Of a DNA stretch of 64,000 nucleotides, positions 3 through 54,442 are shown in pieces (positions within the stretch are counted from its first letter, which is position 1; every line of letters starts with the position of its first letter). The stretch spans positions 26,306 to 90,305 of the forward strand of contig WSUB01000163.1 of assembly GCA_019633425.1 (NCBI GenBank), given 5' to 3'. A program made the position numbers and the translations under genes. The notes below the pieces were generated by a model, which was not told the DNA's origin, ran no database searches, and saw only the letters and a program-made list of their open reading frames with translations. This stretch comes from Tulasnella sp. 424. Taxonomy: Eukaryota > Basidiomycota > Agaricomycetes > Cantharellales > Tulasnellaceae.

Positions 3-2030
3 AAAGCCGAAGAGTCGTTCCTCCAGGCCCGCGATACCTACTCTCAACTAGGGAATCAACAAGGCTTTGCCAACTCGGTCAGGGGTCTGGCCGATGTGTA
101 CCTCATGCTCAAGAAATATTCCACAGCCGAGGAGTCGTACATCCGAGCCCGTGACACCTACTCTCAAATCGGTAATCAGGTCGGCTTTGCCAGCTCGGTC
201 CGCCATCTGGGAGAGGTGTACCGAATGCGAAGCCAGTATTCCAAAGCCAAAGAGTCATTCATCGCAGCCCGTGACACATACTCTCAAATCGGGGATCAGG
301 TTGGCTTTGCCAACTCGGTCGGGGGTCTGGCCGATGTGTACCTCATGTGCAACGAGTATGCCAAAGCCGAGAAGTCGTACATCCAAGCCCGGGATACCTA
401 CTCTCAACTCGGGAATCAGGTCTGCTTTGCCAACTCGGTCAAGGGTCTAGGAGACGTGTACCTTAGGCGTGGCGAGTATTCCAAACCCGAGGAGTCGTAC
501 ATCCAAGCCCGCGATACCTACTCGCAAATAGGAAATCAGCAAGGCTTTGCCAACTCGCTCAAGGCTCTTGGAGATGTGTACCGGATGCGGAGCGAGTATT
601 CCAAAGCCGAGGAGTCGTACATCAAAGCCCGCGACACCTACTCTCAAACAGGGAACCAGCAAGGCTGTGCCAACTCTCTCAAGGCCCTTGGAGACGTATA
701 CCGGATGCGAATCGAGTATTCTAAAGCCGAGGAGTCGTACATCAAAGCCCGCGACACCTACTCTCAAATCGAGAATCAGGACGGCTTCGCCAGCTCGGCC
801 CGCCATCTGGGAGAGGTGTACCGAATCCGAAGCGAGTATCCCAAGGCGAAGGAGTCGTTCCTCCAAGCCCGCAACATGTACTCTCAAACCGGGAATCAGG
901 TCGGCTTTGCCAACTCGGTCGAGGATCTGGCCAATGTGTACCTCATGTGCAGCGAGTATTCCAAAGCCGAGGAGTCTTACATCGAAGCCCGCAACACCTA
1001 CTCTCAAATCGGGAGTCAGCATGGCTTTGCCAACTCGATCAAGGGTCTGGGAGATGTGTACCGGATGCAAAGCGAGTATTCCAAAGCTGAGGAGTCGTAC
1101 CTCCAGGCCCGCAACATCCACTTTCAAATTGGGAATAAGCTCGGCTTGGCGAACTCGGTCTTGGGTCTGGGAAAGGTGTACTGTTTGCAGAACGAGCATT
1201 CCAAAGCCGAGGGGTCGTACATCCAAGCCCGCGACGCCTACTCTCAAATTGGGAATCAGCAAGGCTTTGCCAACTCGGTCAAGGCTCTTGGAGACGTTTA
1301 CCGGATGCAAAGCGAGTATTCCAAAGCCGAAGAGTCGTACATTCAAGCCCGCGACACCTGCTCTCGAATCGGGGATCAGCTCCGCTTTGCCAACGCGGTC
1401 AGCCGCCTGGGAGAGGTCTACCGCATGCAAAGGGAGTATTCCAAAGCCGAGGAGGCCTACATCCAAGCTCACAACGCCTACTCTCAAATTGGGAATCAGC
1501 AAGGCGTTGCCAACTCGATCTTGCGTCTGGCTGAGGACTATCTCGAGGGCGGCGACTATTCCAAAGCCAAAGAGTGGTACATCCAAGCCCGTGACACCTA
1601 CTCTCGAATCGAGGATCGGCTCGGCTTTGCCAACTCGGTCATGGGTCTAGGAGATGTTTACCACATCCAAGGCAAGTACTACAAAGCTGAGGAGTCGTAC
1701 ATCCAAGCCCGCGACACCTACTCTCAAATCAGGGATCAACAGGGCTTTGCCCGCTCGATTTTGCATCTGGCAGAGGAGTACATCATAGGCGGCAAGTATT
1801 CCAAAGCCAAAGAGTCATACATCCAAGCCCGTGACACTTACTCTCGAATCGAGGATCGGCTTGGCTTTGCCAAGTCGGTCAAGGGACTAGGAGATGTATA
1901 CCACATCCAAGGCAGGTACTCCAAAGCTGAGGAGTCGCACATCCAAGCCCGCGACACCTACTCTCAAATCGGTGATCAGCTTGGGTTTGCCAACTCCGCT
2001 CAAGCGCTGGGCCGCGCGTACTCAGCCTCG
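3..2030 (+). repeat. 17 tandem 120-bp coding repeats
   Basis: Units begin near 3, 121, 241 and so on every 120 bases with no change of length. Neighbouring units differ mostly at a few codons: after GLG/VY, the pair before LGDVY, and the residues after SQIG. The array therefore behaves as an in-frame minisatellite that can gain or lose units without breaking the protein. Confidence 0.9.
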
Positions 2031-2279
2031 AGACAGTACGCTCAGGCCGACAAGTCGTACTTGGAGGCACAGGCGGTATATCGTCAGATCGCAGCCACGA
2101 AATCTTTGGCCAGCAACCTGTGGCACCTGGGCCGGCTCCGTCGCCGCCAGGCACAATATGGAGAGGCCAAGCGTCTCGTTTGCGAAGCATCGACACTTTA
2201 TGGCGAACTTGGTCTGAAGAGTGATGTGGCGAGATGTGATACATTTCTTGACAAGGTTCAGCAGCTGATGGCATCTTAA
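3..2279 (+). CDS. KT1: TPR region of a kinase-TPR fusion gene (5' partial)
   Basis: The reading frame is open from base 3 to a TAA ending at 2279, and the window starts inside a repeat, so the start and any kinase exons lie upstream. I count 17 consecutive 40-residue units with core SKAEESYIQARDTYSQ and GFANSVxxLGDVY, each exactly 120 bases. A degenerate unit (AEAQAVYRQ type) and a capping helix ending in VQQLMAS follow. Spacing and residues fit TPRs of the LGN / kinesin-light-chain style, which bind protein partners. By homology with KT2-KT8 this should be the last exon of a kinase-TPR gene, though the kinase is not visible here. It has two to four times as many canonical units as any other copy. 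Loss of its kinase exons upstream cannot be excluded. Confidence 0.85.
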   Translation, partial: KAEESFLQARDTYSQLGNQQGFANSVRGLADVYLMLKKYSTAEESYIRARDTYSQIGNQVGFASSVRHLGEVYRMRSQYSKAKESFIAARDTYSQIGDQVGFANSVGGLADVYLMCNEYAKAEKSYIQARDTYSQLGNQVCFANSVKGLGDVYLRRGEYSKPEESYIQARDTYSQIGNQQGFANSLKALGDVYRMRSEYSKAEESYIKARDTYSQTGNQQGCANSLKALGDVYRMRIEYSKAEESYIKARDTYSQIENQDGFASSARHLGEVYRIRSEYPKAKESFLQARNMYSQTGNQVGFANSVEDLANVYLMCSEYSKAEESYIEARNTYSQIGSQHGFANSIKGLGDVYRMQSEYSKAEESYLQARNIHFQIGNKLGLANSVLGLGKVYCLQNEHSKAEGSYIQARDAYSQIGNQQGFANSVKALGDVYRMQSEYSKAEESYIQARDTCSRIGDQLRFANAVSRLGEVYRMQREYSKAEEAYIQAHNAYSQIGNQQGVANSILRLAEDYLEGGDYSKAKEWYIQARDTYSRIEDRLGFANSVMGLGDVYHIQGKYYKAEESYIQARDTYSQIRDQQGFARSILHLAEEYIIGGKYSKAKESYIQARDTYSRIEDRLGFAKSVKGLGDVYHIQGRYSKAEESHIQARDTYSQIGDQLGFANSAQALGRAYSASRQYAQADKSYLEAQAVYRQIAATKSLASNLWHLGRLRRRQAQYGEAKRLVCEASTLYGELGLKSDVARCDTFLDKVQQLMAS

Positions 2280-3123
2280 TTCCGGTCCCAGCTTTCCGTT
2301 TAATTATTCCCAAATCTGTTTACCGACCCCTACGTTGACATCGCTTAACATGCACGTTTCAATTTCGCATTGATTTCATTCTCTTTCCTGTCCTTGTTCC
2401 CTCTACAGGTTTTTCGGCGATATTTGTTCGACTCCGTATATCTTCCAGTACATTTATGATTTTGGAGCTGACCGTTCGAACGGGGATTGGATGTCGTGCA
2501 TGAAATGTGAATATCCACTTCAGTCCTCGGTGTCATCAAATCCGCGGTCGTGGTTGCGCGTTTAACCTTTCCCCCTCCCTGATTCTAGTGGGCATAGCCT
2601 CGATATTTGAGGTAGAAGGACCTCGTAAACCTTGTCCCCCATCCAAACCCCGTCGCTCATACTACCGAACCCGGCGCTTCCTCCGCTACACCCCTCCAAA
2701 AACACGCTTTGGTGATCAACCGAAAAGTGCCCCACTCACTGCATTGTCGTATCATCCTGACCCTGAGACTGGCCAACGACTCTACGAAAATACACTCTTC
2801 ATCTCCACCGATTCAAATTCCTATGATTTGATTGTTGAGCGGGATGTCATTTTTTGACGATGCTGAGAGAAGCATGTGCCCGTGAAGAGCTGCGTCATCG
2901 GCTCGGTAGCACCTTCCAAAAGGGCTATCGCTCGTGGTGCTTACGGGCGACTAGCCGGCTGAGCAACTTCACCGTAGTCAACCACCATCACTGACGCACG
3001 ATATTTGATGACGCTCTCAGTTTAAGGGCCCTACTCCAAATTTTCGCCAGGAGGCGATGAGAGGGAAAGAAATGGTCTCTTATTTGCGTTTGACTCGAGA
3101 TAAGAGGTGAAAGAGGTCTGAGG
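2280..3123. repeat. KT1 3' spacer fused to a KT-promoter relic and a unit spacer block
   Basis: After the KT1 stop a short 3' flank leads at about 2450 into a stretch matching the promoter found upstream of complete KT genes (compare 6410-6580 and 48750-48905: same TTCGAACGGG, GTGCACGG/ATCCACTTCAG and AATATTTGAGGTAGAAGGACC order). At about 2625 it switches abruptly to the block starting CTTGTCCCCCATCCAAA, seen again at 36030, 40520 and 54635. This is a recombination scar between array units. I see no intact gene. Confidence 0.6.
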
Positions 3124-3209
3124 ATGTCACCACAGAGGAGAACGACAATTCATTGGGTCCGCACCTTTGTCGTCAGTGTGACATGGGGTTGTTCGATGTG
3201 TAACTCGAG

Positions 3210-3407
3210 TGACGTCACACCATTGGTTTTTATCCCCCAAGCACAAGATCTTTTCCATGGACACGTCCCGGTAGAAAATGCTAGGGATATAAATTTGCCA
3301 GTCTTACACGCGCCGACACGGTGTGAATGGAAACATTGTCAAATGAGGACTGGTATCTTTTGTACTCGTGTGCTATTGCACCTGTATGGCCGGGGCTATC
3401 ACACGTG
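3210..3407. promoter_or_regulatory. CRE/CCAAT plus E-box module, unit 1
   Basis: Perfect TGACGTCA at 3210-3217, ATTGG a few bases on (3222-3226) and CACGTG at 3402-3407. The arrangement recurs in several array units. TGACGTCA is the classic bZIP/ATF-CREB site, ATTGG is the inverted CCAAT box, and CACGTG is a bHLH/bZIP core. It precedes the P1 relic, so it is probably the old promoter of the P genes. Occupancy is inference. Confidence 0.5.
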
Positions 3408-6788: not shown

Positions 6789-9195
6789 ATGGCTGACGAT
6801 ATCAAAGAGCTTCAAGAAACAAGTGCTTCACACCCACCGATAAGCGCTCAAGATGCCGCTATCGACGAAGTCGAACAGGCGATGATGCGTCTGAGAATCT
6901 CTCCGGTGGGCGGCTCTATCGATGCCCATTTCGTTAACACTGCAAGAAGCTAACCGCCAAATACTGCTTTAGAGAAAAGTCCTTGCATCGCTGGGACATC
7001 TCCGAATCGAGGAGGCTCGAATCAAACCGCTTGAGGATAGAGCTCCCAAGAAAGGCGGGAAAGCGGACGTGGAGCCAGCGATACTCGTTCCTGCCCAGTC
7101 CCCAAATTCCCTGACATCCGAAGACCCGGAGTACATCGCCGTCAAGAAGCTACGTTGCGACACCGACACCGCCGACGACCGAGTCCTCGCGGTAGGTTGT
7201 CGCCAGATTTCCACTCACAGCGGGTGTTCTAACTCGGGTACACCTCTTGCGTCAAGCCATTTACTCATGAGGTCAAGCTTCTAAACGACCTATCCCACCC
7301 GAGCGTGGTAAGGATCGTTGGTTTCGTCGAGGACGTCGAGCAGGGCATCGCCTGGCTGGTGTTTTCCTGGGAGAAGAATGGCAACTTGCGAGAGTTTGTT
7401 CGGTCCGCCCGCTGGGAGCTTCCAGAACGCGTATCCCTGGTAAACACATCTCTCCCACTACGAGAGTCTAACCTTCGCTTACGGAGCCACAGATAGATGA
7501 CGTGGCCAGGGGACTTAATTACCTCCATGGAAGGACCCCACCAATCTGCCACGGTGATCTGAAATCGGTAAGCTTAATGTGCTTGTCGCTTTTCTGCGTG
7601 GACTGACATTTACCCGGATACAGCTCAACGTCCTGGTCAACTCCGAGAACCGGGCGGTTATTACGGACTTCGGTTCTGCTCGGACGATGGATTCTACGGG
7701 CGTAGGAGCAATCAGAGGCGCCCGTTCGGCGGCTATGGAGTTCCAGCATCGAATCGCAACGACAGCGCCCGCGGTGGACTCCTTGAAGGCCGAGCTAGCT
7801 GCGTCCGGGGATTTCATCACCATGACGGGCCCAGCTTGGACCATCCGATGGGCCGCCCCGGAGCTGCTCGAAGGGGAGTTACCCAGTTTGGCAAGCGACA
7901 TCTGGGCATTGGCTTGGATCTGTTGGGAGGTACTTTGGAGTGAATTGTAGAGAGATCCGGGCCTTCGCTCATCCCCTTTCCGGCTCGGTCTAGGCAATCA
8001 CTGGGAACTTTCCATTTGATGAGGAGAATGATGTCGCAATTGTTCTACGCATTACCAGAGGCGATCTTCCGGCGGTCGGAGATGATGCCCAGCTCAAGCA
8101 AGTCAAGGTACTCTGTAGCCTCATGGGGCGGTGTTGGAGCTTGAATGCAAATGAGCGACCAACGGCTATGAGATGTCAACAAGAAATTTCATTCATGGTA
8201 CGGAGTCCTCATTGTTGTAATTTCCACGTACCTAATTGGCATTCTCGCAGAATCAAGTTATACCCTCAGGCAGCAAACTGAGCGGATCGGCTACAACTCG
8301 CTCGAGCGGACTTTTGCATGCCCTTGGCTCGATTCAACTGCGGAATGACATGGTGGCTGAAGCAGAAAAGTACTTCCAAGAGTCGTTTGTGGTTGCCAAT
8401 TCGGTTGGAGATAAAGAGGGCAAGGCTAGAGCATTAGAAGCACTTGGAGACGCGTACTACTTTCAAGATCGGTACTCTAAAGCCGAGGAGTCATACATCC
8501 AAGCCCGCGACAACTACTCTCAAATCGGGAATCAGCGCGGCTTCGCCGACTCGGTCAGAGGTCTGGGAGACGTGTACCGCATGCGAAGCGAGTATTCCAA
8601 AGCCGAGGAGTCGTACATCCAAGCCCGCGACACCTTCTCCCAAATTGGGGATCAGCTCGGCCTTGCCAACTCGGTCAGGGCTCTGGGACACGTGTACCGC
8701 ATGCGAAGCGAGTATTCCAACGCCAAGGAGTCGTACATCCAAGCCCGTGACACCTACTCTCAAATCGGAGATCAGCTCGGCTTTGCCAACTCGGTCAGGG
8801 GTCTGGGACACGTGTACCGTATCCGAAGCGAGTATTCCAACGCCGAGGAGTCGTACATCCAAGCCCGCGACACCTACTCTCAAATCGGGTCTCAGCTCGG
8901 CTTTGCCAACTCCGTCCAAAGTCTGGGTCAGGTCTACTCAGCTTCGGGTCAGTATGCCAAGGCCGAAAAGTCGTACTTGGAGGCTGAGGTGGTGTATCGT
9001 CGGATCGGAGACATGCTATCTTTGGCCCACAACCTTTGGTACCTCGGCTGGCTCCGTCGCGACCAGGCACAATATGGAGAGGCCAAGCGTCTCGTTTCCG
9101 AAGCATCGACACTGTACGGCGACCTTGGTCTGACGAGTGATGTGGCGGACTGCGATAAATTTCTCGAAAAGGTTCAGCAGCTAATGGCAGCGTAA
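6789..9195 (+). CDS. KT2: protein kinase-TPR fusion, complete
   Basis: Exons 6789-6905, 6973-7191, 7257-7439, 7493-7567, 7624-7929, 7994-8197 and 8251-9195; all introns GT-AG and phase 0; 682 aa. Kinase: degenerate glycine loop (KKGGKADVEPAIL), VAIK-type Lys97 in IAVKKL, Glu117 (THEVKLL), catalytic HGD with Asp195 and Asn200, Asp213 in DFG, RWAAPELLEG as the APE region, SDIWAL, and ERPTAM in subdomain XI. HGD in place of HRD is common in basidiomycete kinases. Exon 7 holds a linker, one degenerate unit, four canonical 40-residue TPRs and two degenerate closing units. There is no signal peptide or membrane segment, so it is probably cytosolic. Substrate and ligand are unknown. Its kinase resembles KT7/KT8 while its TPR tail resembles KT3-KT5. 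Confidence 0.9.
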
Positions 9196-14219: not shown

Positions 14220-16867
14220 ATGACTGACAATATCAAAGAGCTTCAAGAAACAAGTGCTTCACGCCCACCGATAAGCGCTCAAGGTGCCGCTATCGACGAA
14301 GTCGAAGAGGCGATGACGCGTCTTAAAATCTCTCCGGTGGGCGGCTCTATCTACGCACATTTCACCAGGACTGCAGGAGACTAATCTCAAAGTGCCGCTT
14401 TAGAGGAAGGTCCTTGTATCGCTGGGACATCTCCGGATCGAGAAAGCCCGAATCAAACCGCTTGAGGATAAAGCCCCCAAGGCAGGCGGGAAAGCCGACG
14501 TAGAGGCAGCCGTGCTCGTTCCAGTCCAGTCGCGAAATTCCCTAGGATCCAAAGAAACGGAGTACGTTGCGGTCAAGAAGCTACGTTTGGACACCGACAC
14601 CGACGACGATAAAGTTATCACTGTAAGTCGTCGCAGGACTTTCACGCGCAGCGGGTGTTCTAACACGGATACCGATTGCGTGAAGCCATTTGCTCATGAG
14701 GTCAACCTCCTAAACGACTTGTCCCATCCGAATGTGGTGAAGCTCGTCGGTTTTGTCGAAGACGTCGAGGGAGGCATCGCCTGGATGGTGTTTTCCTGGG
14801 AGAAGAATGGCAACTTGCGAGAGTTTGTTCGGTCCGCCAACTGGGAGCTCCCGGAACGCCTGTCTTTGGTAAGCGAATCTCCTCCACCGCAGCCATCTAT
14901 CCTTCAGACTGACGGAACCTCAGATAGGTGACGTGGCCAGCGGACTTACTTATCTCCATGGAAAGACCCCACCAATCTGTCACGGTGATCTGAAATCGGT
15001 AAGCGTAATGTACTTGCTCTTTGTGCGTGAGCTGACATTTACCTCAATACAGCTCAACGTCCTGGTCAATTTCAAGAACCGAGCGATGATTACCGACTTT
15101 GGTTCTTCCCGAACGATGGACTCCACGACTACGAAACCAGTTAGAAACGCCGGTGCAGCGGCCGCGGAAACGTTACAGCATCGAAGGCCTACTACAGCGC
15201 CCACCCTGGAGTCATTGAAGGCGGAGCTCGCTGCATCCGGGGATTTCATCACCATGACGGGTCCAGCCTGGACCATGCGATGGGCCGCCCCGGAGCTGCT
15301 CGAAGGAGAGTTACCCGGTTTGGCAAGCGACATCTGGGCTTTGGGTTGGATTTGTTGGGAGGTACGTTGGAGTGAATTGCAGAGGGATTTCGGCCTTCGC
15401 CCATCCCCGTTCCGGGTCGATCTAGGCAATCACCGGGAACTTTCCATTTGATGAGGAGAGCGACGTCGCAATTATTCTACGCATCACCAAAGGCGATCTT
15501 CCGGCGGTCGGAGATGATGCTCAACTCAAGCAAGTCAAGGTCCTCTGCAGCTTGATGGGGCGGTGTTGGAGTTTGAACGCAAATGAGCGACCAACGGCTA
15601 TAAGGTGCCAACAAGAAATTTCATTCATGGTATGGACTCCTTGTTGCCGTAATCTACGGGTACTTACTCGGCATTCCCGCAGCATCAAGTCGTACCCTCA
15701 AGCAGCAAGCTGAGCGGGTCGGCTACAACTCGCTCAAGCGAGCTTTTGCGTGCCCTTGGCCTGATTCAACAGCGGAATGGCATGATGTCTGAAGCAGAAA
15801 AGCACTTCCAAGAGTCAATTGTGGTTGCCAAGTCGGTTGGAGATAAACAGGGTCAGGCTAGAGCATTAGATGCGCTTGGAGACGTGTACTACTTGCAAGA
15901 CGAGTATTCCAAAGCCGAGGGGTCATACATCCAAGCCCGCGACACCTACTCTCAAATCGGGGATCAGCTCGGCTTTTCCAACTCGGTCTTTGGTCTGGGA
16001 GACGTGTACCGCGTGCGAGACGAGTATTCCAAAGCCGAGGAGTCGTACATCAAAGCCCGTGACACCTACTCTCAAATCGGGGATCAGCTCGGCTTTGCCA
16101 ACTCGGTCAAGGGTCTGGGAGACGTGTACCACATGCAAAGCGAGTATTCCAAAGCCGAGGAGTCGTACATCCAAGCCCGCGACACCTACTCTCAAATCGG
16201 GGATCAGCTCGGCTTTGCCAACTCGGTCAGGGGTCTGGGAGACGTGTACCACAGGCGAAGCGATTATTTCGAAGCCGAGGAATCGTACATCCAAGCCCGC
16301 GACACCTACTCTCAAATTGGATCTCAGCTCGGCTTTGCCAACTCGGTCGATGGTCTGGGAGACGTGTACCGCATGCGAAGCGAGTATTCCAAAGCCGAGG
16401 AGTCATACATCCAAGCCCGTGACACCTACTCTCACATCGGGGATCAGCTAGGCTTTTCCAACTCGGTCCGGAGTCTGGGAGACGTGTACCGTATGCGAAG
16501 CGAGTATTCCAAAGCCGAGGAGTTGTACATCCAAGCCCGCGACACCTCCTCTCAAATCGGGGATCAGCTCGGCGTTGCCAACTCCGTCCAACGTCTGGGC
16601 CAGGCCTACTCATCTTCGGGTCAGTATGCTAAGGCCGAAAAGTCGTACCTGGAGGCTGAGGTGGTGTATCGTCGTATTGGAGACCTGGAATCTTTGGCCA
16701 ACAACCTTTGGTACCTTGGCTGGCTCCGTCGCGACCAGGCACAATACGGAGAGGCCAAGCGTCTCGTTTCCGAAGCATCGACACTTTACAGCAACCTGGG
16801 TCTGAAGAGTAATGTGGCGGGCTGCGATGAATTTCTCGAAGTGGTTCAGCAGCTAACGGCAGAGTAA
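14220..16867 (+). CDS. KT3: protein kinase-TPR fusion, complete
   Basis: Exons 14220-14336, 14404-14622, 14686-14868, 14924-14998, 15053-15361, 15426-15629 and 15683-16867; all phase 0; 763 aa. The kinase keeps VAVKKL Lys, FAHEV Glu, CHGDLKS, TDFGSSR, RWAAPELLEG and SDIWAL. Exon 5 is one codon longer than in KT2/KT7/KT8, placing this kinase in a subgroup with KT4-KT6 (NAGAAAAETLQH-type activation loop). Exon 7 encodes six canonical 40-residue TPRs between a degenerate first unit (EAEKHFQESIVVAK) and the closing AEVVYRRIGD / EASTLYSNLG units. The downstream spacer and upstream P2 relic follow the usual unit order. Likely a soluble signalling protein with a protein-binding repeat arm; the role is inferred. 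Confidence 0.9.
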
Positions 16868-23049: not shown

Positions 23050-25694
23050 ATGGCCCACAACATCAACGAGGTTCAAGAAACAAGTCCTTCACACCCACCG
23101 ATAAGCGCTCAAGACGCCGCTATCGGCGAAGTCGACGAGGCGATGGCGCGTCTTAGAATCTGTCCGGTGGGCAGCTCTTCTCTATGCACCTTTCGTCGGG
23201 ATTGCAGGAGGCTAATTGCCAGGTGCTGCTTTAGAGAAAAGTCCTTGCACCACTGGGGCATCTCCGAATTGAGACAGCCCGCATCAAACCGCTGGAGGAT
23301 AAAGCCCCCAAGGCAGGCGGGCAAGCGGACGTACAGGCAGCGATACTCGTTCCAGCCCAGTCTCAGGAATCCCTAGGATCCAAAGAAACGGAGTACATCG
23401 CCGTCAAGAAGCTACGTTTCGACACCGACACCGACGACGATAAAGTTATCACTGTAAGTCGCATGAGTTTCACGCACAGTGGGTGTTCTAACGCGGATAC
23501 CGATTGTGTCAAGCCATTTGCTCATGAGGTCAACCTTCTAAACGACTTGTCCCATCCAAATGTGGTGAAGCTCGTTGGTTTTGTCGAAGACGTCCAGCAG
23601 GGCATCGCCTGGATGGTGTTTTTGTGGGAGAAGAATGGCAACTTGCGAGAGTTCGTTCGGTCCGCCAACTGGGAGCTCCCGGAACGCCTGTCTTTGGTGA
23701 ACCAATCTCCTCCACCACAGAGATTGATTTTTCAAACTGACGGAACCACAGATAGGTGACGTGGCCAGGGGACTTAGTTATCTCCATGGAAGGACTCCAC
23801 CAATCTGCCATGGTGATCTAAAATCGGTAAGCAAAATGTACTTGCTCTTCGTGCGTGGGCTGACATTGACCTCCATACAGCTCAACGTCCTGGTCAATTC
23901 CAAGAACCGTGCGATTATTACCGACTTTGGTTCTGCCCGAAGAATGGACTCCGCAACTGCAAAACAAGTTAGAAACACAGGTGCGGCGGCCGCGGAAACG
24001 TTCCAGGATCGAAGGCCGACCACGGCGCCCACTCTGGAGTCATTGAAGGCCGAGCTCGCTGCATCCGGGGATTTCATCACCATGACAGGTCCAGCTTGGA
24101 CCATCCGATGGGCCGCCCCGGAGCTGCTAGAAGGAGACTTACCCGGTTTGGCAAGCGACATCTGGGCATTGGGTTGGATCTGTTGGGAGGTACGTTGGAG
24201 TGAATTGCAGAGAGATCGGGGCGTTCGCTCACCCCCTTTCGGGTCGATCTAGGCAATCACTGGGAACTTTCCCTTTGATGAGGAGAACGACGTCGCAATT
24301 GTTCTACGCATCACCAAAGGCGATCTTCCGGCGGTTGGAGATGATGCTCAGCTTAAGCAAGTTAAGGTACTCTGTAGCCTGATGGGGCGGTGCTGGAGCT
24401 TGAACGCAAATGATCGGCCAACAGCTATGAGATGCCAACAAGAAATTTCATTAATGGTATGGAGTCCTTGTTGCTGTAATCTATGGGTACTTACGTGGCA
24501 TTCACGTAGCATCAAGTCGTACCCTCAAGCAGCAAGCTGAGCGGGTCGGCTACAACTCGCTCGAGCGGGCTTTTACGTGCCCTTGGCCTGATTCAACAGC
24601 AGAATGGCATGATGTCGGAAGCAGAAAAGCACTTCCAAGAGTCATTTGCGGTTGCCAATTCGGTTGGAGATAAAGAGGACAAGGCTAGAGCATTAGATGC
24701 GCTTGGAGACGTGTACTACTTGCAATCCGAGTATTCCAAAGCCGAGGGATGGTACATCCAAGCCCGCGACACCTACTCCCAAATTGGGGGTCAGCTTGGC
24801 TTTGCCAACTCGGTCTTGGGCCTGGGAGGCGTGTACCGCATGCGAAGCGAACATCCAAAAGCCGAGGAGTCCTATATCCAAGCTCGCGACACCTACTCTA
24901 AAATCGGGGATCATCTCGGCTTTGCCAACTCGGTCAAGGGTCTGGGACACGTGTACAACATGCGAAGCGAGTATTCCAAAGCCGAGGAGTCGTACATCCA
25001 AGCCCGCGACACCTACTCTCAAATCGGGGATCATCTCGGCCTTGCCGGCTCGGTCTTGGGTCTGGGAGACGTGTACCGCATGCGAAGCGAGAATTCCAAA
25101 GCCGAGGAGTCGTTCATCCAAGCCCGCGACACCTACTCTCAAATCGGGGATCAGCTCGGCTTTGCCAATTCGGTCAAGGCTCTGGGACACGTGTACAACA
25201 TTCGAAGCGAGTATTCCAAAGCCGAGGAGTCATACATCCAAGCCCGCGACACCTACTCTCAAATCGGGTCTCAGCTCGGCTTTGCCTACTCGGTCGAGGG
25301 TCTGGGAGACGTGTACCGCATGCGAAGGAAGTATTCCAAAGCCGAGGAGTCGTACATCCAAGCGCGCGACACCTACTCTCAATTCGGAGATCAGCGAGGC
25401 TTTGCCAACTCCGTCCAAAGTCTGGGTCAGGCCTACTCAGCTTCGGGTCAGTATGCTAAGGCCGAAAAGTCGTACTTGGAGGCTGAGGTGGTGTATCGTC
25501 GGATCGGAGACACGCAATCTTTGGCCAACAACGTTTGGTACTTCGCCTGGCTCCGTCGCCGCCAGGCACAATACGGAGAGGCCAAGCGTCTCGCTTCCGA
25601 AGCATTGACACTTTACGGCAACCTTGATCTGAAGAGTATGGTGGCGAGATGCGATAAATTTCTCGAAGAGGTTCAGCAGCTAATAGTGGTGTAA
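23050..25694 (+). CDS. KT4: protein kinase-TPR fusion, complete
   Basis: Exons 23050-23166, 23235-23453, 23514-23696, 23752-23826, 23881-24189, 24253-24456 and 24510-25694; all phase 0; 763 aa, the same size as KT3. Kinase residues are intact (IAVKKL Lys, FAHEV Glu, CHGDLKS, TDFGSAR, RWAAPELLEG, SDIWAL). Exon 7 carries six canonical TPR units; most begin SKAEES, one HPKAEE and one NSKAEE. The tail is AEVVYRRIGD then EALTLYGNLDL. KT3 and KT4 have equal unit numbers, but their individual repeats do not line up one to one, as expected if repeats are being reshuffled. Start chosen because all KT copies begin M(A/T)(D/H/N)xI(K/N/E)E with the same leader. Confidence 0.9.
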
Positions 25695-31238: not shown

Positions 31239-34128
31239 ATGGCTGACAATATCAAGGAGCTTCAAGAAACTAGTACTTCACCCCCACCGATAAGCGCTCA
31301 AGACGTCGCTGTCGACGAAGTCGAAGAGGCCATGGCGCGTCTTAAAATCTGTCCGGTGGGCGGCTCTATCCGCGCATATTTCGCTGGGACTGCGAGAAGC
31401 TAATCGCCACGTATTGCCTTAGAGAAAAGTCCTTGCATCGTTGGGACATCTCCGAATCGAGAAAGCCAGAATCGAACCGCTGAAGGATAAACGCCGCAAG
31501 GCAGGCGGGAAAGCGGATGTACAGGCTGCAATACTCGTTCCAACCCAGTATTCGAATTCCCCAGGATTCGAAGATACGGAGCACATAGCGGTCAAAAAGC
31601 TACGTTTTGACAGCCTGACCGACGACGAGAGAGCTCTTGCTGTTAGTCGTCATCAGATTTCCACTCGCAGCCGGTGTTCTAACCCGGATACCGTTTATGT
31701 AAAGCCATTAGCTCATGAGGTCAGCCTTCTAAACGACCTATCCCACCCGAGTGTGGTAAAGATCGTTGGTTTCGTCGAAGACGTCGAGCAGGGTATTGCC
31801 TGGATGGTGTTTTCTTGGGAGAAGAATGGCAACTTGCGAGAGTTCGTTCGGTCCGCCAACTGGGAGCTCCCAGAACGCGTATCCTTGGTAAAACACATCT
31901 CTTCTGCTACGAAAGTCTAACATTCGCTTACGGAACCACAGATAGGTGACGTGACCAGGGGACTTGATTATCTCCATGGAAGGACCCCACCAATCTGCCA
32001 CGGTGATCTGAAATCGGTAAGCGTAATGTACTTGCTCTTTGTGCGTGGGCTGACATTTACCCTGAATACAGCTCAACGTCCTGGTCAACTCCAACAACTG
32101 GGCGATTATTACTGACTTTGGTTCTGCCCGGACAATGGACTCCGCAACTGCAAAACCGGTTAGAACCGCCGGTGCGGCGGCCGCGGAGACGTTCCAGAAT
32201 CGAAGACCAACTACGGTACCCACTCTGAAGTCATTGAAAGCCGAACTAGCTGCATCTGGCGATTTCATCACCATGACGGGTCCAGATTGGACCATTCGAT
32301 GGGCCGCTCCGGAGCTGCTGGAAGGAGGGTTACCGAGTTTGGCGAGCGACATATGGGCATTGGGTTGGGTATGTTGGGAGGTGCGTTCGAGTGAATTACA
32401 AATAGGTCTGGGCGTTCGCTCATCCCCTTTCCGGGGTCCATCTAGGCTATCACTGGGAACTTTCCATTTGACGAGGAGAACGACGTCGCAATTGTTCTAC
32501 GCATTACCAGGGGCGATCTTCCGGCGGTTGTAGATAATGCTCAACTCAAGCAAGTCAAGGCACTCTGTAGCCTGATGGGACGGTGTTGGAGCTTGAACGC
32601 AAATGAGCGACCAACAGCTATGAGATGCCAACAAGAAATTTCACTCATGGTATGGAGTCCTTGTTGCTTGTCATCTACGGGTACTGACTTGACATTCCGG
32701 CAGGATCAAGTTGTACCCTCAAGCAGCGAACTGAGCGGGTCAGCCACAACTCGCTCGAGTGGACTTTTGCTCGCCCTTGGCTCGATTAAACGACAGAATG
32801 GCATTATGCCTGAAGCAGAAAAGTACTTCCAAGAGTCATTTGTGGCTGCCAAGTCGGTTGGAGATAAGCAGGGCAAGGCCGGAGCATTAAATGCACTTGG
32901 GGACCTGTACCACGCGCAGGGCGAGTATGCCAAAGCTGAGGAGGCATACATCCAAGCCCGCAATACTTATTCGCAAATCGAGGATCAGAAAGGCTTTGCT
33001 GACTCGGTCAGGGGTCTGGGAAACGTCTATCACGCGCGGGCCGAATATTCGAAAGCCGAAATATCGTACATCCAAGCCCGTGACATCTACTCTCAAATCG
33101 GGGATCAGCTCGGCTTTTCCCATTCGATCTCGGATCTGGGAGACGTGTACCGGATGCGGAGCGAGGATTCCAAAGCCGAGGAGTCGTACATCCAAGCCCG
33201 CGACACCTACTCTCAAATCGGGGATCAGCTCGACTTTGCCAACTCGAACAGAAATCTGGGAGATATCTATTACTTCCAGAATGAGTATTCCAAGGCCGAG
33301 GCATCGTACATCCAAGCCCACGACACCTTCTCTCAAATCGGGAATCAGCGAGGCTGCGCCAACTCGATTTTGGGTCTGGGAAACGTGTACTGGATGCGAA
33401 GCGAGTATTCAAAAGCCCAGGAATCTTACATACAAGCCCGCGACACTTATTCTCAAATCGAGGATCAGCTCGGGATTGCCAACTCGGTCAAGTGTCTAGG
33501 AGAAGTGTACCGCATGCGAGGCGAGTATTCCAAGGCCGAGGAGTCGTACGTCCAAGCCCGCAACACCTATTCTCAAATCGAGGATTCGCTCGGCTTTGCC
33601 AACTCGGTCAGGTGTCTAGGAGAAGTGTACCGTATGCAAGGCGAGTATTCCAAAGCCGAGGAGTCGTACGTCCAAGTCCGCAACACCTACTCTCAAATCG
33701 GGGATCAGCTTGGCTTTGCCAACTCGGTCCAGGGTCTGGGAGACGTGTACCGCATGCGACGCGAGTATTCCAAAGCTGAGGAGTCGTACATTCAAGCCCG
33801 CGACACCTACTCTCAAATCGGGGATCAACAAGGCTTGGCCAACTCCGTCCAAGGTCTGGGTCAGGCCTACTCGGCTTCGGGTCAGTATGCTAAGGCCGAA
33901 AAGGCGTACTTGGAGGCTGAGGTGGTGTATCGTCGGAACGGAGCCATGGGATCTTTGGCCAACAACCTTTGGTACCTCGGCTGGCTCCGTCGCCACCAGG
34001 CACAATATGGAGAGGCCAAGCGTCTCGTTTCCGAAGCATCGACAATTTACGGCAATCTTGGTCTGAAGAGTTATGTGGCGGACTGCGATGAATTTCTCGA
34101 AGAGGTTCAGCAGCTAATGGCGGCGTAA
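31239..34128 (+). CDS. KT5: protein kinase-TPR fusion, complete
   Basis: Exons 31239-31355, 31423-31641, 31705-31887, 31942-32016, 32072-32380, 32446-32649 and 32704-34128; all phase 0; 843 aa. Kinase residues intact; one unusual change is NNWAIITDFG where other copies have NR before AII. Exon 7 has eight canonical TPR units, three with acidic IED in place of IGD, between a degenerate first unit and the AEVVYRRNG / EASTIYGNLG closing units. Its first four repeats match KT6 one by one (ARNTYSQIED, ARDIYSQ, LGDIYY, AHDxFSQIGNQRG), so these two genes are recent duplicates even though a single-copy aminotransferase lies between them. Confidence 0.9.
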
Positions 34129-42036: not shown

Positions 42037-44925
42037 ATGGCTGACAATATCAAGGGGGTTCAAGAAAATAGTCCTTCATCCCCACCGACCAGCGCTCAAG
42101 ACGCCGCTATTGACGAAGTCGGAGACGTGCTGACGCGTCTTAGAATCCGTCCAGTGGGAGGCTCTATCCACGCGCATTTCGCTGGGACTGCATGAGGCTA
42201 ATCGCCACGTACTGCTTTAGAGAAAAGTCCTTGCATCGTTGGGACATCTCCGAATCGAGAAAGCCCGAATCGAACCGCTTAAGGATAAACGCCGCAAGGC
42301 AGGCGGGAAAGCGGACGTACAGGCAGCGATACTCGTTCCAATCCAGTCTTCGAATTGCACGGGATCCGAAGATATGGAATACGTAGCGGTCAAGAAGCTA
42401 CGTTTTGACAGTCTGACCGACAACGATAGAGCTCTTGCTGTAAGTCATCGCGGGATTCCCACTCGCACCGGGTGTTCTAACCCGGATACCGTATATGTCA
42501 AGCCATTAGCTCATGAGGTCAACCTTCTAAACGACTTATCGCATCCAAGCGTGGTGAAAATCGTTGGTTTTGTTGAAGACATCGAGCAGGGCATCGCCTG
42601 GATGATATTTTCGTGGGAGAAAAATGGCAACTTGCGAGAGTTCGTTCGTTCTGCAGACTGGGAGCTCCCAGAACGCGTATCCTTGGTGAATACATCTCTT
42701 CCACTACGAGAGTCTAACCTTCGCTTAGCGGAACCACAGATTGGTGACGTGGTCGAGGGACTTGATTACCTCCATGGAAGAACCCCGCCAATCTGCCACG
42801 GTGATCTGAAATCGGTAAGCGTAATGTACTTGCTTTTTCTTTGCGTGGGTTGACATCTACCTGGATACAGCTCAACATCCTGGTCAATTCCAACAACCGG
42901 GCGATTATCACCGACTTTGGTTCCGCCCGGACGATGGACTCCGCAACTGCAAAACCAGTTGGAAACGCCAGTGTGGCGGCCGCGGAAACGTTCAAAGATC
43001 GAAGAACAACGACGGCGCCCACTCTCGAGTCATTGAAAGCCGAGCTAGCTGCATCTGGGGATTTCATCACCATGACGGGTCCAGCTTGGACCATCCGATG
43101 GGCCGCTCCGGAGCTGCTGGAAGGAGGGCTACCGGGTTTGACAAGCGACATATGGGCACTGGGTTGGATCTGCTGGGAGGTGCGTTGGAGTGAATTGCAG
43201 AGAGATCTGGGCGTTCGCTCATCCCCTTTCCGGGTCGATCTAGGCCATCACTGGCAACTTTCCATTTGATGAGGAGAAAGACGTCGCAATCGCTCTACGA
43301 ATTACCAGAGGCGACCTTCCGGCGGTGGGAGATAATGCTCAGCTCAAGCAAATCAAGGAACTCTGTAGCCTGATGGGACGGTGTTGGAGCTTGAACGCAA
43401 ATGAACGACCAACGGCTGTGAGATGCCAACAAGAGGTTTCGTTCATGGTAGGGACTGCACAATGCTCTAATTTACGTGTACTGACTTGGCATTCCCCCAG
43501 GATCAAGTCATACCCTCAAGCAGCAAAGTGAGCGGGTCAGCCACAACTCGCTCGAGTGGACTTTTGCTCGCCCTTGGCTCAATTAAACGGCAGAATGGCA
43601 TGATGTCTGAAGCAGAAAAGTACTTCCAAGAGTCGCTTGTGGCTGCCCAGTCGGTTGGAGATGAACAGGGCAAGGCCGGAGCATTAGATGCACTTGGGGG
43701 CCTGTACCTCGCCCGGGACGAGTATTCCAAAGCTGAAGAGTCGTACATCCGAGCCCGCAATACCTACTCCCAAATCGAGGATCAGCTCGGCTTTGCCAAC
43801 TCGGTCAAGGGTCTGGGACACGTGTATCACAGCCGGGCCGAGTATTCCAAAGCCGAAACGTCGTACATCCAAGCCCGTGACATCTACTCTCAAGTCGGGG
43901 ATCAGGTCGGCTTCTCCTATTCGGTGTCGGGTCTGGGAGACGTGTACCGCATGCGAAGCGAGTATTCCAAAGCCGAAGAGTTGTACATCCAAGCCCGCAA
44001 CACCTACTCTCAAACCGGGGATCAGCTCGGCTTTGCCAACTCGGTCAGAGATCTGGGAGATATTTACTACCAGCAGAACGAGTATTCCAAGGCCGAGGCA
44101 TCGTACATCCAAGCCCACGACATCTTCTCTCAGATTGGGAATCAGCGAGGCTTTGCCAACTCGATCTTGAGTCTGGGCGACGTGTATCAGATGCGAAGCG
44201 AGTATTCCAAAGCCGAGGAATCGTACATACAAGCCCGGGATACTTACTCTCAAATCGGGGACCAACTCGGGTTTGCCAACTCGGCCAAGGGTCTGGGAGA
44301 CGTGTACTCGGTGCGACGTGAGGATTCCAAAGCCGAGGAGCAGTACATCCAAGCCCGTGACACCTACTCTCAAATTGGGAGTCGGCCCGGCTTTGCCCAC
44401 TCGGTAAGGGGTCTGGGAGACGTGTACCGCATGCGGGACGAGTATTCCAAAGCCGAGGAGTCGTACGTCCAGGCCCGCGACACCTGCTCTCAAACCGGGG
44501 AGCAACTCGGGTTTGCCAACTCGGTCTTGGGTCTGGGAGACGTGTATCGGTTGCGAAGCGAGTATTCCAAAGCCCAGGAGTCGTACGTCCAAGCCCGCGA
44601 CACCTACTCTCAAATCGGGGAGCAACTCGGTTTTGCCAACTCCATTCAAGGGCTGGGGCGCGCCTACTCCGCTTCGGGACAGTACACTCAAGCCGAAAGG
44701 TCATACCGGGAGGCCGAGGCGGTATATCGTCAGATAGGATCCATGACATCTTTGGCCGACAATCTCTTGTACTTGGGCCGGCTCCGTCGCGACCAAGCAC
44801 AATATAGAGAGGCCGAGCGTCTCGTTTGCGAAGCCTCGACACTTTACGACAACTTTGGTCTGAAGAGTGCTGTGGCGGAATGCGATAAATTTTTTGAAGA
44901 GGTTCAGCAGCTAATGGTAGCGTAG
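42037..44925 (+). CDS. KT6: protein kinase-TPR fusion, complete
   Basis: Exons 42037-42153, 42221-42439, 42503-42685, 42740-42814, 42871-43179, 43244-43447 and 43501-44925; all phase 0; 843 aa. Kinase residues intact (VAVKKL, LAHEV, CHGDLKS, TDFGSAR, RWAAPELLEG, SDIWAL). Exon 7 has eight canonical TPR units, the early ones matching KT5. The closing units instead read REAEAVYRQIGS and REAERLVCEASTLYDN, close to KT1 and KT8 and unlike KT5, so the gene looks like a mosaic. Unlike most copies it has no P relic upstream. Confidence 0.9.
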
Positions 44926-48650: not shown

Positions 48651-48719
48651 TTCGATCTACAAAAGCAGGAGCATTAGGGAGGTTACGGGAATGTCTTAGG
48701 AAAGATCCTCACTCGTGCC

Positions 48720-49146: not shown

Positions 49147-51421
49147 ATGGCTGATAATATCAAGGAGCTTCAAGAAACTAGTCCTTCACCCCCACCGATA
49201 AGCCCTCAAGACGCCACTATCGAAGAAGCGATGAAGCGTTTGAGAATCTGTCCAGTGGGTGGCTCTATCCTATGCACATTTCGTCGGGACTCCAGGAGGC
49301 TAACCCCCAAATGCTGCGTTAGAGAAAGGTCCTTGCTTCGCTGGGACATCTCCGAATCGAGAAAGCTCGAATCAAACCGCTTGAGGACAAACCCCCCAAG
49401 GCAGGTGGGAAAGCTGACGTGGAAGCAGCGATACTCGCTCCAGTCCAGTCCTCAAACTCCTTGGGATCTAAAGACACGGAGTACGTCGCCGTCAAGAAGC
49501 TTCGTTTCGGCGCCTCCACCGACAACGATAAAGTTATTGCTGTAAGTCGTCGCAAGATTCCGACTGACAGTCGTTGTTCTAACTCGAATACCGTTTGTGT
49601 CAAGCCATTTGCTCATGAGGTCAAGCTTCTGAATGACTTATCCCATTCGAACGTGGTCAAGATCGTTGGTTTCGTCGAAGACGTCGAGCAGGGCATTGCT
49701 TGGATGGTGTTTTCCTGGGAGGGGAATGGCAATTTGCGAGAGTTCGTTCGGTCCGCCAACTGGGAGCTCCCAGAACGTGTATCCTTGGTAGTCACATCCC
49801 TCACATCACGGCAATCTACCTTCACTTACGGAGTCACAGATAGGTGATGTGGCCATGGGACTTCGTTATCTCCATGGAAGGACCTCACCAATATGCCATG
49901 GTGATTTGAAATCGGTAGGAATAACGTACTTGCTCTTTTGTGTGTGAGCTGACATTTACCTGGATACAGCTCAACGTCCTAGTCAACTCCGAGAACCGGG
50001 CAATTATTACGGACTTCGGTTCTGCTCGGACGATGGATTCCGCAAGTGCGCCAACAGCTAGAAGCGCCCGTTCGGCGGCTATGCAGTTCCAGCATCAAAT
50101 CACAACGACAGCGCCCATCGTGGAGTCCTTGAAGGCGGAGCTAGATGTGTCTGGGGATTTCATCACCATGACCGGCCCAGCTTGGACCGTCCGATGGGCC
50201 GCTCCGGAGCTGTTGGAAGGAGAGTTAGCCGGTTTGGCAAGCGACATCTGGGCATTGGGTTGGATTTGTTGGGAGGTGAGTTGGAATGAATTGTAGAGGG
50301 ATCTGGGCGTGCACCCACGTCCTTTCTGGGTCGATCTAGGCAATCACTGGGAACTTTCCATTTAATGAGGAGAATGACCTCGCAATTGTTTTACGCATCA
50401 CCAAAGGCGATCTTCCGGCGGTGGGAGATGATGCTCAGCTCAAACAAGTAAAGGCACTATGCAGCCTGATGGGGCGATGTTGGAGATTGAATGGCAACGA
50501 ACGACCAACGGCCATGAGATGCCAACAAGAACTTTCATTCATGGTATGGAGTCCTTGTTGCTGTGATCTGCGGGTACTTACTTGGCATTCCCGCAGCATC
50601 AAGTTGTACCCTCCAGCAGCAAACTGAGCGGGTCGGCTCCAACTCGCTCGAGTGCACTTTTGCGTGCCCTTGGCGGGATTCAACTGCGGAATGGAACAAT
50701 GTCTGAAGCAGAAAAGTACTTCCAAGAGTCATTTGCAGTTGCCAAGTCGGCTGGAGATAAACAGGGCAAGGCCAGAGCACTATATTCGCTTGGATACATG
50801 TACTCCACGCAAAGCGAATACTCCAAAGCCGAGGAGTCGTACACCCAAGCACGCGACGCCTACTCTGAAATCGGGGATCGGGAAGGCTTTGCCGACTCTG
50901 GCTGGGGTCTGGGAGAGGTGTACCGGCTGCAAAACGAGAATTCCAAAGCCGAAGAGTTGTACAACCAAATCCACAACACCTACTCTCAACTCGGGAATCA
51001 ACATGGCATTGCCTACTCATTCATGGGTCTGGGAGACGTGTACCAGATGCGAAGCGAGTATTCCAAAGCCGAGGAGTCGTACATCCAAGCTCGCGACACC
51101 TCCTCTCAGATCGGGGATCAGCTTGGCTTTGCCAACGCCGTCCAAGGGCTGGGGGGCGTATTCTCAGCTTTGGGGAACTACGCTGAGGCCGAAAAGTCGT
51201 ACTTGGAGGCACAGGCCGTGTATCGTCAGTTGGGAGACGTGCTATCTTTGGCCAACAATCTTTGGTACCTCGGCTGGCTCCATCGCAACCAGGCCCAATA
51301 TGGAGAGGCCGAGCGTTTCGTTTGCGAAGCGTCGACACTTTACGGTAAACTTGGTGTGAAGAGTGATGTGGCGGTCTGCGATGAATTTATTATAGAGGTT
51401 CAGCAGCTAAGGGCATCTTAA
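49147..51421 (+). CDS. KT7: protein kinase-TPR fusion, shortest copy
   Basis: Exons 49147-49254, 49323-49541, 49605-49787, 49840-49914, 49970-50275, 50340-50543 and 50597-51421; all phase 0; 639 aa. Exon 1 is three codons shorter than in other copies (QDATIEEAMKRL). Kinase residues intact (VAVKKL, FAHEV, CHGDLKS, TDFGSAR, RWAAPELLEG, SDIWAL). Its activation loop (ARSAAMQFQHQ) groups it with KT2 and KT8. Exon 7 has only three canonical TPR units, two of them unusual (TQARDAYSEIGDREG and NQIHNTYSQLGNQHG), and closes with LEAQAVYRQLGD. A reduced repeat arm may alter partner binding; that is inference. Confidence 0.9.
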
Positions 51422-51918: not shown

Positions 51919-54442
51919 ATGGCTAACTGTATCGAAGAGCTTCAACCAACAAGTCCTTCACACTCACCGATAAGCGTCCAAAATGCCGCTATCGACGAAG
52001 TCGAAGAGGCGATGACGCGTCTTAGGATCCGTCCGGTGGGCGGCTCTGTTCTATGCATATTTCGTTGGGACTGCAGGAGACTGATCAAAAATTGCTGCTG
52101 TAGAGAAAAGTACTTGAATCATTGGGACATCTCCGAATCGAAAAAGCTCGAATCAAACCGCTTGAGGATAAAGCCCCCAAGGCAGGCGGGAAAGCAGACG
52201 TTGAGGCAGCGACACTTGTTCCCGCCCAGTCCTCGTATTCCCTGGAATCCGAAGATACGGAGTACATCGCCATCAAGAAGTTACGTTTCGACACCGACAC
52301 CGACGACGATCGAGCTCTCGCTGTAAGTCGTCCCAAGATTTCCACTCATAGGGAGCGTTCTAACCCGGAGACCACTTGGGGCAAGCCATTTGCTCATGAG
52401 GTCCAGCTTCTGAACGACTTATCCCATCCGAGCGTGGTAAAGATCGTTGGTTTTGTCGAAGATGTCGAGCAGAGTGTCGCCTGGATGGTATTTTTGTGGG
52501 AGAAGAATGGCAACTTGCGAGAGTTCGTCCGGTCCGCAAACTGGGAGCTCCCAGAACGCGTGTCTTTGGTAACAAATATCTTCCACTACGAGGGGGTAGC
52601 CTTTGCTTACGGAGCTACAGATATATGACGTGGCCACGGGACTTGATTACCTCCATGGAAGGACCCCACCAATATGCCACGGTGATTTGAAATCGGTTCG
52701 CGTCACGAACTTGCTCTGTTGTGCGTGGGCTAACATTGCCCTGAATACAGCTCAACATTCTAATTAATTCCGAGAACCGGGCGATTATTACGGACTTCGG
52801 TTCTGCTCGGATGATGGATTCCGAGAGCGCAGGAACAATTAAAAGCGCCCATTCAACGGCTATGGAGTTGCCGCATCGAATCGCAGCGACAACGCCCTCC
52901 GTGGAGTCCTTAACGGCCGAGCTAGCTGCGTCCGGGGATTTCATCACCATGACGGGTCCGGCTTGGACCATCCGATGGGCCGCTCCGGAGCTGCTGGAAG
53001 GAGAGTTACCCGGTTTGAGCAGCGACATCTGGGCATTGGGTTGGATCTGTTGGGAGGTGCGTTGGAGTGAATTGCAGAGAGATCTGGGTGTTCGCTCACC
53101 CTCTTTCCGGGGCGATCCAGGCTATCACTGGGAACTTTCCATTTGATGAGCAAAACGACCTCGCAATCGTTCTACGCATCACCAAAGGCGATCTTCCGGC
53201 GGTGGCAGACGATGCCCAGCTCAAACAAGTCAAGGTGCTCTGTAGCCTGATGGGTTGGTGTTGGAGATTGAATGCGAATGATCGACCAACAGCTATGAGA
53301 TGCCAACAAGAGATTTCACTCATGGTACGGAGTCCTCGTTGCTGTAGTCTATGCATACTTATTCGGCATTGCCGCAGGCTAAATTCATACCCTCAACCAG
53401 CGAAGCGAACGGGTTGCCTACAACTCGCTCGAGTGGGCTTTTGAAAGCCCTTGGCTGGATTCAATACAGGAATGGCATGATGCCTGAAGCGGAAAAGTAC
53501 TTCCAAGGGTCGTTTGTGGTTGCCACGTTGGTTGGAGATAAAGGGGGCAAGGCTAGAGCGTTAAATGCCCTTGGAGATGTGTACCACATGCGAAGCGAGT
53601 ATTCCAAAGCCGAGGGATTGTACATCCAAGCCCGCGACACTTGCTCTCAAATCGAGGACCAGCTTGGGTTTGCCGACTCGCTCAAGGGTCTGGGAGACGT
53701 GTACTGCAAGCGAAGCGAGTATTCCAAAGCCGAGGAGTCGTACATCCAAGCCCGCGACACCTACTCTCAAATCGAGCATCAGCGAGGCTTTGCCCACTCG
53801 CTCAAGGGTCTGGGACACGTGTACCGCGTCCGAAGCGAGTATTCCAAAGCCGAAATGTCGTTCATCCAAGCCCGCGACACCTACTCTCAAATCGGGGATC
53901 AGCTCGGCTTCGCCAACTCGGTCAAGGGTCTGGGAGACCTGTACCTCTTGCAAAGCGAGTGTTCCAAAGCCGAGGAGTCGTACCTCCAAGCCCGCGACAC
54001 CTTCTCTCAAATCGGAGATCGGCTCGGCTTAGCCAACTCGGTCAAGGGTCTGGGACGCGTGTACCTCATACAAAGCGAGTATTCCAAAGCCGAGGAGTCG
54101 TACATCCAAGCCCGCGACACCTATTCTCAAGTCGGGGATCAGCTTGGCTTTGCCAACTCCGTCCAAGGGCTGGCGGGTGTCTTCTCAGCTTTGGGAAACC
54201 ATGCTCAGGCCGAAGAGTCGTACTTGGAGGCACAGGCGGTATATCGTCAGATCCGAGCCATGCTATCTTTGGCCAACAACCTTTGGTGCTTGGGCTGGCT
54301 CCGTTGCGATCAGGCCCAGTATGGAGAGGCCGAGCGTCTCGTTGGTGAAGCATCGGCACTTTACAGTGAACTTGGTCTAAAGAGTAATGTGGCGAGATGC
54401 GATGAATTTCTTAAAAAGGTTCAGCAGGTGATGGCAACGTAA
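51919..54442 (+). CDS. KT8: protein kinase-TPR fusion, complete
   Basis: Exons 51919-52035, 52104-52322, 52386-52568, 52621-52695, 52751-53056, 53121-53324 and 53378-54442; all phase 0; 722 aa. Intron 4 begins GTTCGC, a weak donor compared with GTAAGC in the sisters, and intron 5 ends CCAG where others have CTAG. Kinase residues intact (IAIKKL, FAHEV, CHGDLKS, TDFGSAR, RWAAPELLEG, SDIWAL). Exon 7 opens AKFIPSTS instead of the usual (H/D/N)QVxPSxSKLSG, then has five canonical TPR units and an AQAEESYLEAQAVYRQ tail like KT1 and KT7. Splicing efficiency of intron 4 is the main uncertainty. Confidence 0.87.

Follow-up and report, generated by a model that had tools for sequence, protein, structure and literature searches.

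The repeat arms of fungal NLRs and the unexplained TKL kinase expansions of mycorrhizal fungi belong to two separate literatures, which are joined by the gene family described here. In the relevant passages of Dyrka et al. 2014 (PMC4986451), protein kinase is listed among the N-terminal domains of fungal NLRs, and their tetratricopeptide repeat (TPR) arms show repeat-number polymorphism, positive selection and, in ~21% of them, 85% internal repeat conservation over at least 100 aa; the average NLR set in agaricomycetes amounts to 72 hits per species. Sections of PMC12881547 describe fungal protease domains joined straight to WD40, TPR or ANK repeats, a precedent for sensors lacking an NTPase. 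TK-like kinases are much expanded in Agaricomycetes, with recent paralogues grouping by species (passages of Kosti et al. 2010, PMC2838846, and of PMC3937382), and expanded TKL kinases are also reported from Laccaria (PMC2838846). Outside fungi, bacterial PknG uses a TPR scaffold to link the detection of a signal with phosphorylation (excerpt of PMC8546545). Finally, excerpts of PMC11503967 state that the signalling molecules of orchid mycorrhiza are still largely unidentified and that 266 kinase-like genes differ in Tulasnella SV6 symbiotic samples with orchid. Here we analyse a window of 64,000 nucleotides from Tulasnella sp. 424 (assembly GCA_019633425.1, 46.85 Mb in 448 contigs; contig WSUB01000163.1, here C72, positions 26306–90305), in which eight genes fusing a kinase to a TPR arm stand in tandem. 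The family to which they belong is notable for its scale and for the absence of an NTPase when set beside the known NLR-like TPR arms and the expanded TKL kinases.

The array occupies positions 1–54442 of the window, with seven complete genes (g2–g8) and one, g1, cut by the window edge. Tandem Repeats Finder (TRF) located on the + strand eight exons built of 120-bp repeats, with scores (386 to 2065) well outside what chance would give, and kinase exons stand 5' of each. Gene g3 was modelled first, as seven exons, and the model was then transferred to g2 and g4–g8. Each of these seven genes has 7 exons and 6 introns; all 42 introns are GT–AG, there are no internal stops, and the predicted proteins measure 682, 763, 763, 843, 843, 639 and 722 aa from g2 to g8. 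The N-terminal extension and the kinase come from exons 1–6, the TPR arm from exon 7 (Table 1). The frame of g1 is open over 1763 codons in all; it has GTA at C72:22932, where g2–g8 have ATG, and its next in-frame Met is residue 32. These models, with the upstream exons of g1, bear out the eight tandem genes of common structure (seven complete, one partial) proposed in a first-pass annotation of the window. From g1 to g8 the arms hold 31, 4, 6, 6, 8, 8, 3 and 5 canonical units, to which an alternative unit scan adds one or two divergent cap units per gene. The annotated range of 3 to at least 17 units thus keeps its minimum and has its maximum raised to 31, the figure of 17 having come from counting only the in-window part of g1.

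The AVKK/AIKK Lys, the HEV Glu, HGDLKSLN, DFGS and APE are readable in all eight genes, so the catalytic residues are intact, as had been claimed. In g3, Pfam found PK_Tyr_Ser-Thr (PF07714; 122.4 bits against a cut-off of 23.1) and TPR_12; with the motifs of g1–g8, this domain identifies the proteins as TKL/TK-like kinases. The same scan, run on g3 only, gave kinase, TPR and weak TPR-like families and no NACHT, NB-ARC or other NTPase, in agreement with the first reading. Across the 21 pairs of g2–g8, the kinase exons have a mean omega (ratio of nonsynonymous to synonymous rates) of 0.254 (range 0.195–0.296) at a mean synonymous divergence (dS) of 0.41, individual dS values running from 0.26 to 0.54. 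The kinase exons are under purifying selection. The proteins are probably soluble and intracellular, since inspection by eye, with no predictor used, revealed neither signal peptide nor membrane span.

The array is a small part of a much larger family. Exact matches to HGDLKS followed directly by the GT of an intron number 697 genome-wide (367 and 330 on the two strands), against 1 for the reversed-pattern control, which answers the call for a genome search for genes of the same kind with a family far larger than the array. From the first 100 listed sites, which span C1 to C42, we left out 15 on C27 and 5 seen before and drew 12 at random from the other 80; the draws came from C4–C36, and 2.8 kb was read at each locus. 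All 12 carry a TPR arm. It lies on the same strand as the kinase, keeps one frame open and counts from 6 to at least 14 units; none of the 12 has TPR units on the opposite strand. At least two of the draws (C30 and C35:115271) are close to TPR matches known from an earlier TPR search. Three further loci, chosen by eye, also have the arm. If the 12 are treated as a random sample, the one-sided 95% lower limit on the share with an arm is 78%, which corresponds to ~540 genes, so that the genome perhaps holds more than 500 kinase–TPR genes of this family. At 17 sites in these 15 loci a strict regular expression found DFG in 16 and APE in 14, and the beta-3 lysine motif was present at four of the five sites with enough upstream sequence. 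A kinase-exon query matched at least 150 places (150 of 798 candidates scored); 33 of the 35 matches with at least 65% identity have a downstream TPR match, as do 27 of the remaining 115, in a test that used TPR matches from a search with 150 of its 4394 candidates scored and was superseded by the random draw.

A database search with the g3 protein scored 7992 candidates and gave 621 proteins, of which the best 120 included 112 named ones, all from Tulasnella, and 8 unnamed; 53 were from T. calospora and 34 from UAMH 9824. Kinase and TPR Pfam domains are present in 120 of these 120 (table read by eye). Such relatives already stand in the databases under the labels 'hypothetical protein' or 'protein kinase domain', and no description of a fungal kinase–TPR repertoire was found in the searched literature (mostly open-access titles, abstract starts and passages). 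A kinase tree was built from g2–g8 and 118 of the best 120 relatives (two were too short), leaving out g1 and the members on C27. In this tree g2–g8 fall together in a single clade (support 0.999). Species labels switch 39 times across the tree, vs at least 58 in 300 shuffles. By their kinase sequences, these seven genes thus belong to a lineage-specific clade. The eight unnamed relatives come from short contigs (2.0–3.3 kb); three of them (P0017, P0024 and P0026) are intron-free from kinase to arm and for this reason look like spliced transcripts.

A second search used the arm of g1. Among its best 120 of 170 proteins (772–2457 aa), 31 are Tulasnella-named, all with kinase domains, and the five other named fungal proteins (from Tetrapyrgos, Gymnopilus, two Athelia and Favolaschia) are all STAND/NACHT/NB-ARC proteins, a result that favours the likeness to fungal recognition repertoires drawn in the first reading. 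Among the remaining listed matches are many TPR proteins that are bacterial or unnamed; CHAT or kinase domains are frequent in them, and a kinase–TPR fusion as such is therefore not unique. The predicted model of P0013, a homologue from T. calospora with 64% identity to g3, has a mean pLDDT of 80; its kinase contains an insert of low confidence at 218–268, and unbroken helices follow at 384–757 with pLDDT ~95. The best Foldseek matches in the PDB were LGN/Pins TPR domains (3sf4, 6hc2, 4wnd; TM-score up to 0.87 of target, identity 15-20%), mostly solved with partner peptides, followed by kinases such as CSK, EphA3 and JAK1. The arm is thus predicted to form an open TPR superhelix.

TPR numbering was anchored on the A20 and Y24 landmarks, and we took positions 2, 5, 9, 12 and 13 to be the ligand groove. 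The ten most variable unit positions in the array are 5, 12, 38, 13, 6, 15, 2, 36, 9 and 4. Mean entropy is 2.28 bits at the groove positions vs 0.88 elsewhere, a contrast matched by 41 of 658008 five-position sets, so variability does fall on the expected ligand face; by our mapping, the repeat positions 29-30, 37-39 and 20-23 singled out by the first-pass annotation are canonical 5-6, 13-15 and 36-39 if its unit starts at Tyr17. A replicate with 149 units from 22 other loci, some of them cut by the locus end, gave 2.28 vs 0.91 bits (45 of 658008 sets). For the 71 array units, a parsimony count on a unit tree put omega at 0.78 in the groove and 0.44 outside it, with 0.34 in helix B; in the same order, the 149 units of the other loci gave 0.74, 0.47 and 0.40. 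The groove thus has more freedom to vary than helix B does. The diversifying selection suspected at the repeat positions is not demonstrated: none of 40 positions was significantly positive in the array and one of 40 was so in the other loci (p 0.037, uncorrected). A groove omega of 2.2 in g3/g4 was set aside, as it comes from 35 codons per gene with very few synonymous changes; the value in g5/g6 is 0.51. The ten most variable positions give 0.89–0.94, a figure also set aside because their choice is circular.

Units are alike throughout the array, which agrees with the first impression of very similar units, and the supposed excess within genes is lacking: mean identity within vs between genes is 0.661 vs 0.670 for amino acids and 0.780 vs 0.786 for nucleotides. 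Concerted evolution within genes, in its simple form, was rejected on this ground. Gene by gene, the within-gene mean amino-acid identity of core units is 0.52-0.78. Of the 71 units, 34.5 have their nearest unit within their own gene, vs 16.3 expected (11.5 of 40 vs 5.4 without g1), which indicates some local duplication. The best blocks of 3, 4 and 6 units in g1 barely pass the 99% level obtained by shuffling the unit order; those of the distant member C408a do not. For most units of g5 the closest match is their positional counterpart in g6, and arm and kinase dS are alike in this pair (0.291 and 0.303). In g3/g4 the arm dS of 0.137 is lower than the kinase dS of 0.257, a sequence pattern that hints at conversion in that pair.

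Table 1. Coordinates of the kinase–TPR genes and related features (window positions unless a contig is named).
Feature	Position	Strand	Basis or remark
g1 exon 7, 3' part (TPR arm)	1..2279	+	31 canonical 40-aa units and cap in whole exon
g1 whole exon 7	C72:24400-28584	+	splice transfer; open frame from C72:24370, 1404 codons
g1 kinase exons 1-6	C72:22932-24346	+	upstream of window, same contig; intact
g2 kinase exons 1-6 (N-terminal extension, kinase)	6789..8197	+	gene model
g2 exon 7, TPR arm, 4 canonical units and cap	8251..9195	+	gene model, unit count
g3 kinase exons 1-6	14220..15629	+	gene model, Pfam
g3 exon 7, TPR arm, 6 canonical units and cap	15683..16867	+	gene model, unit count
g4 kinase exons 1-6	23050..24456	+	gene model
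g4 exon 7, TPR arm, 6 canonical units and cap	24510..25694	+	gene model, unit count
g5 kinase exons 1-6	31239..32649	+	gene model
g5 exon 7, TPR arm, 8 canonical units and cap	32704..34128	+	gene model, unit count
g6 kinase exons 1-6	42037..43447	+	gene model
g6 exon 7, TPR arm, 8 canonical units and cap	43501..44925	+	gene model, unit count
g7 kinase exons 1-6	49147..50543	+	gene model
g7 exon 7, TPR arm, 3 canonical units and cap (shortest)	50597..51421	+	gene model, unit count
g8 kinase exons 1-6	51919..53324	+	gene model
g8 exon 7, TPR arm, 5 canonical units and cap	53378..54442	+	gene model, unit count
Tracts alike to the g3-upstream tract	2784-3825, 17309-18399, 19323-19737, 20712-22413, 26123-30832, 34567-36706, 40263-41683, 45349-48263
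Distant kinase–TPR gene L063	C408:173000-178800	−	31 units, one open frame, 1413 aa

Between the genes, several tracts resemble in pieces, with 63-88% identity, the tract upstream of g3 (9304 onward), and these duplicated intergenic tracts indicate that whole segments were amplified. The open reading frames upstream of g2, g3 and g4 (5413-6114, 12796-13365 and 21968-22489) are alike by eye and had no Pfam match; they are possibly remnants of a co-duplicated gene. A fragment between g5 and g6 (37850-38305) matches a class I/II aminotransferase. On the 3' side of the array lie a GH47 alpha-mannosidase (55799-58773, −) and an MFS transporter (62824-63948, +).

The genome also holds at least 150 NPHP3_N-type NACHT matches (150 of 167 candidates scored) and two weak NB-ARC matches. 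On C268 and C26, PF00069 matches lie less than 2 kb 5' of NACHT on the same strand (L060, L061 and L062), their kinase and NACHT exons being either fusions or neighbours. An array-type kinase beside NACHT was looked for and rejected there: the three loci read have HADIKPENVL/DFGLS and not HGDLKSLN/DFGS, and their kinases are thus of another type. A crude motif scan of eight NACHT loci (~1.5-kb flanks) found one WD40 and one TPR motif in total, too little to weigh either way. Other kinase types, with HGDIKPSNVL and HADIKPANVL, are found on the contig of the array at C72:1-16200.

We read the family as a diversified intracellular repertoire in which the TPR groove picks ligands or substrates for a fused, active kinase, and we give this reading about an even chance. 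The array genes would encode soluble intracellular TKL/TK-like kinases with a C-terminal open TPR superhelix, whose concave groove, differing by unit and by gene, would let each protein read a different ligand or dock a different substrate. Such binding would switch or target the attached kinase, and the ligands may be foreign or partner-derived (orchid, bacteria, other hyphae). To make the set, whole genes would have been duplicated in tandem together with their flanking DNA, and 120-bp units would have been gained and lost; it would work like NLR-type sensors in which a kinase stands where the NTPase would be. The intact and constrained kinases, the arm fold resembling peptide-binding domains, the variable groove, the scale, the STAND-type relatives of the g1 arm and the clade all argue for it. 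Several results pull the other way. Groove omega (0.74-0.78) stays below 1 and is reached by 1416 of 20000 random five-position sets in the array and by 2365 of 20000 in the other loci, so often that diversifying selection is not demonstrated. Groove enrichment is weaker in C408a (1.62 vs 1.03 bits, 12809 of 658008 sets), and units are not more alike within than between genes, unlike model NLR arms. Variable groove positions are generally expected in TPR families, so they suggest a ligand-type use and not an arms race. The 266 kinases of PMC11503967, which we counted in favour, may or may not belong to the array family, as its excerpts mention no TPR fusion. Non-self recognition is one possible use of such a repertoire, which we put forward tentatively. 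We are just as hesitant about a wider proposal, that several hundred NTPase-free receptor kinases, their TPR grooves combinatorially varied for non-self sensing and their kinase triggering the response, might have replaced or supplemented the NLR repertoire in Tulasnella.

The genes may instead be ordinary endogenous signalling kinases, with arms that dock the fungus's own substrates or scaffolds and an expansion that serves development or symbiosis signalling rather than the recognition of foreign molecules. This is a realistic alternative, if not a probable one. Plant BSK3 has a TPR domain fused to its kinase. With this plant case (BSK3, PMC6336344) and bacterial PknG (PMC8546545), kinase–TPR fusions have signalling precedents, and the g1-arm list adds several other kinase and TPR proteins, some named 'eukaryotic-like serine/threonine-protein kinase'. 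The TKL expansion in Laccaria (passages of PMC2838846), the groove omega below 1 and the kinase-like genes changing in orchid symbiosis (266, excerpts of PMC11503967) fit with endogenous signalling. In our judgement, however, 697 sites, 3 to 31 units in adjoining paralogues and a lineage-specific clade exceed the usual need of a core pathway. That duplication has simply outrun function, as a mostly neutral or selfish amplification leaving most copies redundant or decaying, would agree with the 63-88% identical tracts flanking the genes, with g1 lacking the usual ATG and with the relaxed arm omega of two close gene pairs (0.40 in g5/g6, 0.74 in g3/g4). We find it improbable, given frames and splice sites intact in seven of seven genes at dS 0.26-0.54, a kinase omega of 0.20-0.30, kinase motifs kept in distant members, and long intron-free frames in relatives that look like spliced transcripts. 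Very improbable, finally, is that an assembly artefact or unmerged haplotypes swell the array and the family. The assembly is in 448 contigs and the family-bearing C380 and C360 measure merely 10-12 kb, but array members differ at dS 0.26-0.54, related species are rich in such proteins too (53 from T. calospora and 34 from UAMH 9824 among the best 120 of 621), and the assembly contains the adjoining GH47 region just once (one 100% match), which speaks against unmerged haplotypes at the array.

More than 500 kinase–TPR fusions, if real, would outnumber the average agaricomycete NLR set (72 hits in the relevant passages of PMC4986451). If the arms of this putative repertoire read ligands, the proteins would amount to a system of receptor kinases inside fungal cells and a candidate means by which orchid fungi perceive a host or a rival.

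Among known systems, the TPR domains of LGN/Pins are the closest solved fold to the P0013 arm, a superhelix solved with bound partner peptides. LGN has no kinase, and in LGN/Pins the TPR domain is followed by GoLoco motifs; the array arms, in contrast, end in a TPR cap, and the Pfam list of g3 has no GoLoco. The BSK and PknG kinases are few genes with short TPR domains. They share with the array genes a kinase fused to TPRs (plant BSK, PMC6336344; PknG, excerpt of PMC8546545) and, unlike the Tulasnella genes, form no array with 3 to 31 units. The TKL and FslK expansions resemble the array family in being large TK-like kinase expansions with species-wise paralogues (passages of PMC2838846 and PMC3937382); the array kinases have a fused TPR arm, whereas the string 'TPR' occurs once in PMC2838846 (TKL) and not at all in PMC3937382 (FslK). 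Fungal NLRs have a central NACHT or NB-ARC NTPase, which Pfam did not find in array gene g3, the one gene scanned. The 85% internal repeat conservation of PMC4986451, frequent and not required in NLR arms according to its passages, exceeds the 0.52-0.78 of the array, a comparison in which the procedure of that paper was not rerun. The array genes nevertheless share with the NLR/STAND proteins of the same passages (PMC4986451) the amplification of the genes and a C-terminal TPR arm of variable length, and this superstructure-forming repeat arm, characteristic of fungal NLRs, is present in all eight genes of the array.

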